Origin: Candidatus Peribacteraceae bacterium
GTDB lineage: Bacteria; Patescibacteriota; Gracilibacteria; Peribacterales; Peribacteraceae
Reading direction: 5' to 3'
NCBI GenBank assembly: GCA_028703835.1
Contig: JAQVMB010000002.1
Coordinates: 33,232 to 97,231, forward strand
Length of the DNA stretch: 64,000 nucleotides
In this document: in pieces, positions 55,208 to 59,819 of the stretch
Layout of the letters: each line of letters opens with the position of its first letter
Numbering within the stretch: the stretch's first letter is position 1
Notes under the pieces: generated by a model
The model's database searches: none
What the model saw: only the letters and a program-made list of their open reading frames with translations
What the model was told of the DNA's origin: nothing
Made by a program: the position numbers and the translations under genes

Positions 55208-56320
55208 ATGGGTGTTGTGATTTCAGCGCTGGCATTCCTGCTCCTCCTCAGCGTGCTCGTGCTCATCCACGAGTGCGGCCACTATTTTGCGGCGAAAGAA
55301 GCAGGCGTGACGGTGGAGGAGTTCGGCTTCGGCCTGCCGCCGCGTGCGAAGACGCTCTTCACGTACGGCGGTACGCGCTTCTCGCTCAACTGGATTCCTT
55401 TCGGCGGGTTCGTGCGGCTGAAGGGGGAGAACCTGGAACGGGAATCCGACCGGCACAAGCGCGGCAGCTTTTCGGCCGCGTCGATCCCCGCGCGCATCGT
55501 CATCCTCAGCGCGGGCGTCGCCATGAATTTCCTCTTCGCGCTTTTGCTCTTCACGGTGGGTTTCTCCGTCGGCCGCTGGATCCCGACGTACCTGACGTAT
55601 GAGGAGCTGCAGGGGGCGGCGGAACGCGGGGAAGTGCACCTCGTGCCCGGCGTCCTCATCGACGAGGTCATTGCCGGAGGGGGGGCGGAGCAGGCGGGGA
55701 TCCCCGTTCCGAGCATCCTCACGGCCGTGAGCGGCACGCCCGTCACGTCTCCCGACCAGGTGGCGCCGTTGCAGGAGGGGAAGCGCCGCGTGTCCTACGC
55801 GCTCCTCACGGGCACGGGTTTCACGCAGGAAGTGACGCTGACGCTGCCCGTTCGCGACGGCAAGACCGGCGTCTCGCTGCGCGCTTCGCCGCGCGAATTA
55901 TCCGCTCCGGCCCGCTCCGTCGGGAAAGCGTTCCTCCTTTCCCTCCGCGAGGCGCGGGTGGTGACGGTGCAGACCGTGATCGGGATGGAGCAGTTGGCGG
56001 TGACGCTGTTTTCCCAGGGGCGCATTCCCGAAGGGGTCACGGGCATCGTCGGCATCGCGGAGCTGACGCACCTTTCCGTGCAGGAAGGGTTCACGACGTA
56101 CCTTCGCCTCGTCGCGCTTCTCAGCTTGAGCCTGGCCGTCCTGAACATCCTGCCGCTTCCCGCCCTGGACGGAGGACGATTACTCTTCGTGCTGGTCGAG
56201 CTGGTCCGGCGCAAGCCCGCCAACCGCCAGTTTGAAATCACCACGAACCTCGTCGGTTTCCTGCTCCTCATCGGCCTCATTCTCGTCATCACGTACAACG
56301 ATATCATCCGCTTGTTCTGA
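55208..56320 (+). CDS. rseP: RIP metalloprotease RseP (M50)
   Basis: LLLLSVLVLIHECGHYFAAKEAGVTVEEFGFGLPPR, NWIPFGGFVRLKGE, PDZ-like region, LNILPLPALDGGRLLFVLVEL. Confidence 0.93.
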   Translation: MGVVISALAFLLLLSVLVLIHECGHYFAAKEAGVTVEEFGFGLPPRAKTLFTYGGTRFSLNWIPFGGFVRLKGENLERESDRHKRGSFSAASIPARIVILSAGVAMNFLFALLLFTVGFSVGRWIPTYLTYEELQGAAERGEVHLVPGVLIDEVIAGGGAEQAGIPVPSILTAVSGTPVTSPDQVAPLQEGKRRVSYALLTGTGFTQEVTLTLPVRDGKTGVSLRASPRELSAPARSVGKAFLLSLREARVVTVQTVIGMEQLAVTLFSQGRIPEGVTGIVGIAELTHLSVQEGFTTYLRLVALLSLSLAVLNILPLPALDGGRLLFVLVELVRRKPANRQFEITTNLVGFLLLIGLILVITYNDIIRLF

Positions 56321-56321
56321 T

Positions 56322-57776
56322 ATGTCGCCCGCCGTTGCTCCGCCACCGGCTCCCGTCATCGATCAGACCCTGCGGGATCTCTGGGTGACCATCCTCCGCG
56401 GCATCGAGCCAAAACTGCAGCGCAGCCAGTTCATCACATGGTTCAAGGACACGACGGTGCTGGGGAACGAGGAAGGGACGCTGGTGGTGGGCTTGCCGCT
56501 GCCGATGTTCCTGAACTGGCACATGGAACACTACCGGGTCCTCACGCTGGAGGCGGCGCAGGCCGTGGAGCCGTCCGTGCGCCAGATCGTGTACAAGGTG
56601 GACGTGGGCTTGCGGGACAACCGTGAGCGGTCGACCGATATCCTCCAATTTTTCCCCGAGCAGAAACGGCGCAAGCTGGCGGGTCGCCAGGAAGTGAAGC
56701 TGGCGGAGGGGATCGTGAGCAAGGTGCTCAACCCCAAGTACACGCTGGAGCACTTCGTCGTCGGCGCCAACAACCGTCTCGCGCACGCGGCGTGCCAGGC
56801 CGTGGCGAACCAGCCGGGCGGCAAGTACAACCCGCTCTTTCTCTATGGCGGCGTGGGGCTGGGCAAGACGCATCTCCTCCAGGCGACGGGTAACGCCATC
56901 CTGAAACAGGCGCCCAAGGCGACGGTGGTCTACACCACGACGGAGGATTTCACGAATCAGGTCATCGAGGCGATCCAGCACCAGAAGATGGAGCAGCTGC
57001 GCCGCCGGTACCGTCTGGTGGATGTGCTGATCATCGACGACGTGCAGTTTCTCGCCAACAAGGAGCGGACGCAGGAAGAATTTTTCCATACGTTCAACGC
57101 GCTCTACGAGGAGCGCAAGCAGGTCATCATTTCCGCGGACCGCCCTCCCCAGGAATTGCAGATGGAGGACCGGCTCATCTCCCGCTTCGAGCGTGGGATG
57201 ATCGCGGACGTGAGCGTCCCCGACTACGAGACGCGCCTGGCGATCCTTTCCGAGAAAGCGGCGGAGTACGAGATCTTCCTGGACATGCATGTCCTGCAGT
57301 TCATCGCCGAGCACGTCACGCGCAACGTCCGTGAGCTGGAGGGAATTCTCATGCAGGCCGTGGCGCTCTACGAGCTGGAGCAGCGCATGCCCACCATCAA
57401 GAGCATCGCGGAGATCATGCGGAAGCTGAACAAGGATCCGTACGTCGAGGAGGAGAAAGTCGGCTTCGAGACGCCCGAGAAGCGCAAGGCCACGTTCCAG
57501 GATCTCCTGGAGTCGGTGAGCCGCTACTACTCCGTGTCCGTGCAGGACATGATCGGCCAGTCGCGCGTGCGGGAGATCCTCGTGCCGCGCCAGATCGCGA
57601 TGTTCCTCGGCAAGAAGCACCTGCGCATGAGTTACGTCCGCCTCGGGGAGATGTTCAGCAACCGTGACCACACGACGGTGATGAACGCGGTGGAGAAGAT
57701 CGAGCAGAAGCAGCAAAACGATCCGCAATTACTCAGGGAGGTCCGGGCGATCGAACAGGAGCTTGGAGTAGTGTGA
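56322..57776 (+). CDS. dnaA: Chromosomal replication initiator DnaA
   Basis: YTLEHFVVGANNRLAHAACQAVANQPGGKYNPLFLYGGVGLGKTHLLQA, LIIDDVQFLANKERTQEEFFHTFN, SRFERGMIADVSVPDYETRLAIL, QIAMFLGKKHLRMSYVRLGEMFSNRDHTTVMNAVEKI. Confidence 0.97.
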   Translation: MSPAVAPPPAPVIDQTLRDLWVTILRGIEPKLQRSQFITWFKDTTVLGNEEGTLVVGLPLPMFLNWHMEHYRVLTLEAAQAVEPSVRQIVYKVDVGLRDNRERSTDILQFFPEQKRRKLAGRQEVKLAEGIVSKVLNPKYTLEHFVVGANNRLAHAACQAVANQPGGKYNPLFLYGGVGLGKTHLLQATGNAILKQAPKATVVYTTTEDFTNQVIEAIQHQKMEQLRRRYRLVDVLIIDDVQFLANKERTQEEFFHTFNALYEERKQVIISADRPPQELQMEDRLISRFERGMIADVSVPDYETRLAILSEKAAEYEIFLDMHVLQFIAEHVTRNVRELEGILMQAVALYELEQRMPTIKSIAEIMRKLNKDPYVEEEKVGFETPEKRKATFQDLLESVSRYYSVSVQDMIGQSRVREILVPRQIAMFLGKKHLRMSYVRLGEMFSNRDHTTVMNAVEKIEQKQQNDPQLLREVRAIEQELGVV

Positions 57777-57821: not shown

Positions 57822-57851
57822 TTGTTTGCCCCCGATCCGTTGCTGTACACT
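57822..57851 (+). promoter_or_regulatory. Candidate promoter of the thrS leader
   Basis: TTGTTT (57822-57827), 18-nt spacer, TACACT (57846-57851); would start transcription a few nt before ATG 57861. Confidence 0.45.
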
Positions 57852-57860
57852 TTGACGGTC

Positions 57861-57911
57861 ATGCAGCATCTCTTCGTCACGACGACGACCACGACGACGA
57901 CCTCCTTCTAG
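57861..57911 (+). CDS. thrS leader peptide MQHLFVTTTTTTTTSF
   Basis: ATG CAG CAT CTC TTC GTC ACG ACG ACG ACC ACG ACG ACG ACC TCC TTC TAG: eight consecutive Thr codons 88 bp upstream of the threonyl-tRNA synthetase start. Below the ORF track length cutoff. Confidence 0.82.
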   Translation: MQHLFVTTTTTTTTSF

Positions 57912-57971
57912 GAAGGGGAGAGCTGCTCACGCCTCCGTCTCACCCTTCCGAAGAGCGAAGGTTTCTTTTTT
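57902..57971 (+). terminator. Attenuator: alternative 1:2, 2:3 and terminator 3:4 hairpins
   Basis: 1:2 CTCCTTC(57902-57908)/GAAGGGG(57912-57918); 2:3 GGAAGGG(57911-57917)/CCCTTCC(57943-57949); 3:4 CCTTC(57944-57948)/GAAGG(57957-57961) followed by TTTCTTTTTT. Confidence 0.8.
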
Positions 57972-57998
57972 ATCTCCCCACTCCTATCCTCCTCCCAT

Positions 57999-59819
57999 AT
58001 GTCCACACAAGCTCCGGAACAACCCGTCGATGACCTCTACAAGATCCGCCACTCCGTGGCGCACGTCCTCGCGCAGGCCGTGCAGCGGCTGTGGCCGACC
58101 GTGAAGATCACGTTGGGGCCGCCGATCGACTACGGCGCCTATTACGATTTCCTCTTCGACCAGCCCATCTCGGAGGAGGATTTCCCGAAGATCGAGAAGG
58201 AAATGCGCAAGATCATCAACCAGGGGCAGACGTTCCGTCGTGATGACCTGACGGCTGAGGAGGCGAAGAAGTACTGGAAGGAGCGCAAGCAGCCCTTCAA
58301 GGTGGAGCTGATCGAGGACCTGGAGAAGAGCCAGCACATCACGGAGGTGACGCACTACGCGAACATCGGATTAAAAGGAGAGGAGACGTTCGTCGACCTC
58401 TGCCGCGGTGGGCACGTCGAAAGCACCAAGGAGATCCCTGCGGATGCGTTCAAGATCATGAGCCTCGCGGGGGCGTACTGGCGCGGGGACGAGAAACGGG
58501 AGCAGCTCACGCGCATTTACGTGGCTGCGTTCCGGAGCAAGAAGGAACTGGAGGAGTACCAGACGATGATGGAAGAAGCCCGCAAGCGCGACCACCGCAA
58601 GCTCGGAAAGGAACTGGATCTCTTCATATTCTCGGATGACGTGGGTCCCGGGCTGCCTCTCTGGACGCCGCGCGGGACGATCATCGCGGATGCGATCGAA
58701 ACGTTGGCGAAGGAGACGGAGGCCGAAGGCGGCTATCTCCGCGTCCGGACGCCCCATGTCGCGAAAGGGCAATTGTACGAGAAGACGGGGCACTTGGCGC
58801 ACTACAGGGAAACGATGTTTCCGCCGATGAAATTGGGCGACGACGAAGGGGAGTATTTCCTCAAGCCCATGAATTGCCCGCACCACCACCAGATCTTCGC
58901 GTCGGGCCTGCGCAGTTACCGCGAGTTGCCGATGCGGTTGGCGGAGTACGGCCACTGCTACCGTTCCGAGGGGTCCGGCGCCCTCTTCGGCCTCATGCGC
59001 GTCCGTTCGCTCACGATGAATGATGCGCACATCTACTGCACGGAAGAGCAGTTCGAGGAAGAATTCAATGCCGTCTTGCGGATGTACCTGAAGTACTTCG
59101 AGCTCTTCGACATCAAGAAGTACGTCATGCGCCTGTCGCTCCACGATCCCAAGGAGTTGGGGAAGAAGTATGTGGACGCGCCGGCGCTGTGGCTGAAAAC
59201 GGAGGACATGGTGCGGTCGGCCATGAAGAAATCGGGGATCGACTACGTTGAGGTGCCGGACGAAGCGGCGTTCTACGGCCCGAAGATCGACGTGGAGGTG
59301 TGGAGCGCCATCGGAAGGGAGTTCACGCTCGCCACGAACCAAGTGGACTTCGACGTGCCCGGGAAATTGGGACTGAAGTACATCGACAAGGACGGGTCGG
59401 AGAAAGTGCCCATCTGCATCCATCGCGCGCCGCTCTCCACGCACGAGCGCCTCATCGGTTTCCTCATCGAACAGTTCGCGGGCCTGTTCCCGCTCTGGCT
59501 CGCGCCGGTGCAGGTCGCCCTCATCCCCGTTGCGGGGGCACACGAGGCGTATGCGAAAGACTTGGAACGGCGGATGAAGGAGCAGGGGATCCGCACGCAG
59601 GTCATGGATCCCGCCGATTCGCTCGGCAAGCGCGTCCGGGAAGGGGAGAAGTGGAAGATCCCGTACCTGCTTGTGATCGGGGACAAGGAGGCGGAGTCCA
59701 AGTCCGTGGCCGTCCGCAACGTCTCTACGAAGCAACAGGTGACCGTTCCGTTCGAGGAATTCGTCGCGAAGACCGCGGAGGACATTCGGGAGCGGAGGCT
59801 GCGGGCATCCATTGGATAG
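57999..59819 (+). CDS. thrS: Threonyl-tRNA synthetase, no N-terminal TGS domain evident
   Basis: RHSVAHVLAQAVQRL, DLCRGGHVESTKEI, KPMNCPHHHQIFASGLRSYRELPMRLAEYGHCYRSEGSGALFGLMRVRSLTMNDAHIYC, ICIHRAPLSTHERLIGFLIEQFAGLFPLWLAPVQV. Confidence 0.96.
   Translation: MSTQAPEQPVDDLYKIRHSVAHVLAQAVQRLWPTVKITLGPPIDYGAYYDFLFDQPISEEDFPKIEKEMRKIINQGQTFRRDDLTAEEAKKYWKERKQPFKVELIEDLEKSQHITEVTHYANIGLKGEETFVDLCRGGHVESTKEIPADAFKIMSLAGAYWRGDEKREQLTRIYVAAFRSKKELEEYQTMMEEARKRDHRKLGKELDLFIFSDDVGPGLPLWTPRGTIIADAIETLAKETEAEGGYLRVRTPHVAKGQLYEKTGHLAHYRETMFPPMKLGDDEGEYFLKPMNCPHHHQIFASGLRSYRELPMRLAEYGHCYRSEGSGALFGLMRVRSLTMNDAHIYCTEEQFEEEFNAVLRMYLKYFELFDIKKYVMRLSLHDPKELGKKYVDAPALWLKTEDMVRSAMKKSGIDYVEVPDEAAFYGPKIDVEVWSAIGREFTLATNQVDFDVPGKLGLKYIDKDGSEKVPICIHRAPLSTHERLIGFLIEQFAGLFPLWLAPVQVALIPVAGAHEAYAKDLERRMKEQGIRTQVMDPADSLGKRVREGEKWKIPYLLVIGDKEAESKSVAVRNVSTKQQVTVPFEEFVAKTAEDIRERRLRASIG

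Follow-up and report, generated by a model that had tools for sequence, protein, structure and literature searches.

The window, a 64,000-nt stretch of DNA from the Candidatus Peribacteraceae genome G000 (1.34 Mb, 98.5% complete), carries on its forward strand dnaA (56232-57776; TIGR00362; these are the bounds of the longest reading frame, and the true start is probably further in) and, downstream of it, thrS (57999-59819), encoding a threonyl-tRNA synthetase (ThrRS) of 606 residues (TIGR00418, 635 bits against a cut-off of 384) with the Pfam domains PF00587, PF03129 and PF07973. Between the two genes, 85 bp from the end of dnaA and in the same direction, lies a 16-codon open reading frame, MQHLFVTTTTTTTTSF (57861-57911), which closes with a TAG stop codon (57909-57911) and includes eight consecutive threonine codons (57879-57902; ACG ACG ACG ACC ACG ACG ACG ACC). 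This is the longest single-residue run among the short reading frames of the window on both strands, the next longest having five residues. A candidate promoter, P1 (57822-57851), consists of a -35-like TTGTTT (57822-57827), an 18-nt spacer and the -10 element TACACT (57846-57851), which stands 9 nt from the leader ATG. A second candidate promoter, P2, is represented by the -10-like TATCCT (57985-57990), 8 nt before the thrS ATG and downstream of the terminator described below. A strict sigma-70 consensus scan of the region returned no promoter.

Three pairings compete around the end of this leader. Region 1 (CTCCTTC, 57902-57908) overlaps the last threonine codon and could pair with GAAGGGG (57912-57918) in region 2, forming a duplex of -11.6 kcal/mol. 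Region 2 (GGAAGGGGAGA, 57911-57921) begins at the final base of the leader stop codon and would provide the 5' arm of an antiterminator, its core GGAAGGG (57911-57917) pairing with CCCTTCC (57943-57949) in region 3 (TCTCACCCTTCC, 57938-57949); the 2:3 duplex has -18.1 kcal/mol. Region 3 is common to this antiterminator and to the predicted terminator hairpin 3:4, CCTTC-CGAAGAGC-GAAGG (57944-57961; arms 57944-57948 and 57957-57961), which is followed directly by the T-run TTTCTTTTTT (57962-57971) and was picked up by a terminator scan as the one terminator-like site in 400 bp, where 0.2 would be expected. The original prediction had proposed the eight-threonine leader, the 1:2, 2:3 and 3:4 pairings and the T-run, all of which we find at the same positions base by base. 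Its extension of 2:3 past a one-base bulge also exists, and is now placed at GAGA 57918-57921 and TCTC 57938-57941 with A57942 bulged; the terminator is present but weak in the window copy, its -5.8 kcal/mol being among the weakest values in a set where relatives span -4.1 to -12.8 kcal/mol. As a single sequence, the region folds no more stably than its shuffles (z -0.52), which is expected for a switch and is not counted as support, and the case therefore rests on comparison between loci.

We compared the DNA upstream of thrS at 67 loci from the family (Candidatus Peribacteria), 40 from elsewhere in the class and 60 from outside the class. An in-frame, threonine-rich leader with matching layout is present at 21 of the 67 family loci, where the original prediction had suggested a search for threonine-codon runs in relatives, and at 8 of the 40 other class loci. 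Under a stricter test, which demanded a short reading frame within 400-460 nt upstream in which at least five of nine residues are equal, threonine was recovered on the sense strand at 17/67 family and 8/40 class loci and on the antisense strand at none, and it was the sole residue enriched to such a degree. Family leaders include MHRPLTTTATTTTSV (L005), MHLLRTTTTTTTTPMRRS (L017), MSQRTTTTTTTTSR (L023), VNIRSTTTGTTTTTR (L029), MQKSVTATTTTTTTF (L030) and VHTLIVTTTTTTTSL (L044), the weakest being those of L019 and L046; the class leaders outside the family (L158, L178, L179, L180, L182, L184, L186 and L189) come from at least five further families. Threonine counts are mostly six to eight per leader, and all four codons are used (ACC 64, ACG 57, ACT 20 and ACA 12 over the leaders), a mixture across relatives which shows that the run is not a simple DNA repeat. 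The residues flanking the run are not conserved between leaders.

The distribution of the unit is uneven. No leader was found at 46 of the 67 family loci, including one from the same genus (L007, genome G014), and the 60 phylum loci outside the class yielded at most three weak threonine-rich reading frames, without a T-run, so that it is no common feature of Patescibacteria as a whole. Mapped on a ThrRS tree built from the first about 200 residues, leader presence takes about 12 changes, at least nine of them on well-supported branches, against a mean of 18.1 for shuffled labels, and its history is likely one of repeated loss, or of gain. Judged by these comparisons, the combination of threonine leader and hairpins is not a product of chance. 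In other Patescibacteria, short reading frames with several threonines run into a small ACCCC...GGGGT hairpin a short way upstream of thrS, with no T-run (L277, L280 and L287), an arrangement that may represent another kind of threonine-dependent control. Two Gammaproteobacteria MAGs (L122 and L131) have threonine-run reading frames before thrS, MRRQTTTTTTTRIGSASRAVMIA and MALNGNTTTTTRRPTTGRRAVR; a -10-like box lies just upstream of the start of each frame and a strong terminator stands ahead of thrS. At neither locus did we find an antiterminator or, in the folding test described below, a switch.

Covariation was assessed by exchanging hairpin partners between genomes, using the four arms of 15 representatives (distinct sequence types) in 10,000 permutations. 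We set the arm boundaries manually, ahead of any permutation, and preferred this procedure to counting alignment columns because MAFFT partly misaligned region 3. In these statistics, which ignore kinship among the 15 representatives, the mean energy of 2:3 is -17.2 kcal/mol for native partners and -13.4 kcal/mol for permuted ones, with 0 of 10,000 permutations as low, and that of 3:4 is -11.7 and -9.4 kcal/mol, respectively, with 1 of 10,000 as low. Exchange of arms thus spoils both helices, which answers the covariation check proposed at the outset and argues that antiterminator and terminator are maintained through compensating changes; arm sequences change between genera while the pairing is kept. 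The signal for the 1:2 protector hairpin is weak, 551 of 10,000 permutations being as good. A 1:4 pairing that appears in the minimum-energy fold was rejected, as it shows no covariation (3421 of 10,000 permutations as good).

To represent translation of the leader, we placed a ribosome of fixed footprint on each leader RNA, its leading edge 12 nt beyond the first base of the A site, and folded the RNA downstream of that edge in an equilibrium model. With the ribosome on the threonine codons, the mean probabilities over the 21 family loci are 0.23 for the terminator and 0.61 for the antiterminator; with the ribosome at the stop codon they are 0.73 and 0.03, respectively. A combined switch score of at least 0.8 is reached by 14 of the 15 representatives and by 5.2% of 600 dinucleotide shuffles, so that folding, which the original prediction had named as a check, gives the antiterminator for ribosomes on the threonine codons and the terminator for ribosomes at the stop codon. 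Six class loci with unrelated arm sequences (L178, L180, L182, L184, L186 and L189) show terminator probabilities of 0.90-0.99 at the stop codon and the antiterminator at most threonine positions. In the window, the antiterminator probability is 0.89 on threonine codons 1-7 and 0.00 at the stop codon, where the terminator reaches only 0.17. L026 and L029 show no switch in this test. At most leader loci the hairpin passes directly into a T-run; the T-runs of L023, L025, L026, L028 and L046 are poor or missing. Within the model, the spacing of the unit is such that stalled and terminating ribosomes give opposite folds.

With high confidence, we interpret the unit as a ribosome-mediated transcription attenuator through which thrS responds to charged tRNA-Thr, a reading already put forward in the original prediction and supported here by the recurrence of the leader, the covariation of 2:3 and 3:4 and the ribosome-position folds. 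In the scheme we propose, where the promoter positions, the stalling, the termination and the physiological signal are what we infer, transcripts from P1 would begin no more than about 3 nt from the leader ATG, giving an RNA with a leaderless 5' end onto which a ribosome would load. When Thr-tRNA is ample, the ribosome would cross the eight threonine codons, reach the stop codon and cover region 2, leaving region 3 to pair with region 4 and RNA polymerase to terminate near 57971. Under a shortage of Thr-tRNA, the ribosome would stall inside the threonine run and region 2, being free, would pair with region 3, blocking the terminator and allowing transcription of thrS. The original prediction had the stalled ribosome mask region 1; this masking probably matters less than arrival of the ribosome at the stop codon and coverage of region 2, which would be decisive.

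The start signals of the leader fit such a scheme. A TANNNT box lies 4-10 nt before the leader start codon at 19 of the 21 loci, mostly at 6-9 nt, compared with 0-1 at control offsets and a mean of 2.9 in shuffles, and no Shine-Dalgarno-like sequence precedes the leader at any of the 21. With the -10 box right before the leader ATG (9 nt in the window), the message that encodes the leader peptide is probably leaderless, or nearly so, in agreement with what had been suspected from the window alone. Similar boxes precede 34 of 46 leader-free thrS genes and, in six Peribacteria genomes, 30 of the 44 genes for other synthetases; leaderless starts look like the local default in this lineage. The boxes of the synthetase genes often read TGnTAnnnT and end 6-9 nt before the start (e.g., L194, L213, L227 and L256), and Shine-Dalgarno sequences are nearly absent before this set of genes. 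In G000, where we looked for the 16S anti-Shine-Dalgarno, a pattern match was rejected, as it is not rRNA.

At 12 of the 21 leader-carrying loci, thrS itself is preceded by a TANNNT box within a gap of 4-10 nt (found at 7-10 nt; shuffles, mean 2.7 and maximum 7), and no Shine-Dalgarno sequence is available there to serve a read-through message. P2 would probably supply thrS with a basal level of leaderless message that escapes the switch, and the control that the attenuator exerts on thrS may be partial. A stronger version, in which the unit is real and thrS is nevertheless transcribed mainly from P2, with the upstream share either a minor threonine-tunable contribution or a source of read-through interference with P2, would accommodate these boxes, the missing Shine-Dalgarno sequences and the leader-free relatives, which appear to start thrS from just such a box. 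We regard it as a serious if rather unlikely possibility, since compensating changes that preserve the switch in distant genomes are hard to explain if the switch is nearly irrelevant, and the window box TATCCT has no extended TGn.

The poor or missing T-runs at some loci, L026 and L046 among them, would suit control at the level of translation, with the hairpins governing how accessible the thrS start is, or with the ribosome stalled by the nascent peptide itself. We consider this improbable: in most loci the T-run follows the hairpin immediately, there is no Shine-Dalgarno sequence to sequester, and the lack of conservation around the threonine run speaks against a specific stalling peptide. 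Still less probable is that the hairpin does no more than terminate dnaA transcription, with the threonine frame arising incidentally from an ACG/ACC-rich stretch, an explanation invited by the short, co-directional interval between dnaA and the leader. The threonine runs are in frame with a start and a stop at 21 loci, mix four codons and occur on the sense strand only; the unit keeps its place close to thrS even where dnaA lies as far off as 1.5 kb; and changes in the antiterminator arm are matched by changes in region 3. The covariation and ribosome-position tests largely refute this origin. Direct binding of tRNA by the RNA, as in the T-boxes that control many Firmicutes synthetase genes or in some other element, can practically be dismissed: an Rfam covariance-model search of the window and 14 leader loci matched no family, neither the T-box nor the threonine leader, and a coding threonine run would be unneeded. 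Something like a T-box core stands upstream of thrS at L276, in another patescibacterial genome, where GGGTGGAACCG leads into a hairpin and T-run; it gave no Rfam T-box match even at E up to 1.

The unit belongs to thrS and not to its neighbour. dnaA lies upstream, at 0.15-1.5 kb, in 20 of the 21 leader-carrying loci, and at L019, L038 and L039 the gene behind the leader encodes ThrRS fused to a tRNA-editing domain (PF04073); the varying distance from dnaA and the occurrence before these fusions both assign the unit to thrS. The extra N-terminal editing domain (YbaK-like), placed before the usual ThrRS start, occurs in L004 as well as in these three, and was assigned by a Pfam run on L038 and by similarity in L004, L019 and L039. 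The ThrRS proteins of L038, L039, L040 and L044 are 70-78% identical to that of the window over the first about 200 residues and 56-59% identical over their full lengths, and these thrS genes are possibly mosaic. A wider synthetase regulon was considered and rejected for the nine synthetases examined: in six Peribacteria genomes, no cognate-codon leader precedes the Val, Ile, Leu, Ser, Pro, His, Gly, Tyr and Trp synthetase genes.

Bacteria of the Candidate Phyla Radiation are believed to be without most pathways for making amino acids. We did not find homoserine dehydrogenase in G000, while it is present in all 14 control genomes, which is in line with threonine auxotrophy of this organism and makes thrS a plausible place to sense threonine supply. 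G002 (L324) contains a homoserine dehydrogenase domain, the only one among eight Peribacteria genomes. Across many genera, a synthetase gene retains a probable RNA sensor of its own amino acid despite the presumed missing synthesis. The arrangement implies close coupling of transcription and translation, together with leaderless initiation, in the Peribacteria branch, and the switch would serve, just as it occurs in nature, to report on threonine supply. A broader proposal is that this is an old, threonine-specific attenuator of the Peribacteria/Gracilibacteria class, combining a leaderless leader with a bypassing leaderless promoter and serving thrS alone among the synthetases, in apparently auxotrophic, genome-reduced hosts for which leaderless starts are the default; we hold it tentatively, at slightly less than an even chance.

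Leader-peptide attenuation has long been known in E. coli operons; for the Peribacteria branch, and for Patescibacteria or the Candidate Phyla Radiation at large, we found no earlier report of it in the open-access literature searched, which excludes most subscription papers. The enterobacterial thrABC, his and trp attenuators comprise a short leader reading frame with many cognate codons, an antiterminator and a terminator hairpin that exclude each other, and a T-run. The Peribacteria unit resembles them in each of these features and differs in that it would control a tRNA synthetase instead of a biosynthetic operon, in that its leader is apparently leaderless and in that G000 lacks homoserine dehydrogenase. 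Closer in its target is the E. coli pheST operon, a synthetase operon under attenuation by the leader peptide pheM, although that system reads Phe and not Thr, its leader is not leaderless and its lineage is unrelated. E. coli thrS is autoregulated at translation by binding of the protein to its own mRNA, with no leader peptide, so that the two systems have thrS as a common target and the leader peptide is found only in that of Peribacteria.

The original prediction knew of no such arrangement for thrS in bacteria of this type, and this needs some qualification, since attenuators with cognate leader peptides have been predicted for Streptomyces leuS and trpS (PMC1262725) and a thrL is listed before thrS in S. 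lividans, where several leader peptides are read from leaderless transcripts (PMC8079986). The S. lividans thrL is a weak candidate, with two threonines (MKRVRPFLETTPGFVPAR) and no clear terminator (PMC8079986), whereas the leaders described here mostly have six to eight threonines, co-varying antiterminator and terminator arms and conservation over family and class. Bacillus hisS paralogues carry His leader peptides in place of a T-box (PMC2965389), and thus share a leader peptide before a synthetase-type gene, for another amino acid and in another phylum. Set against these known attenuators, the distinctive traits of the Peribacteria unit would be its leaderless start and its possible bypass promoter.
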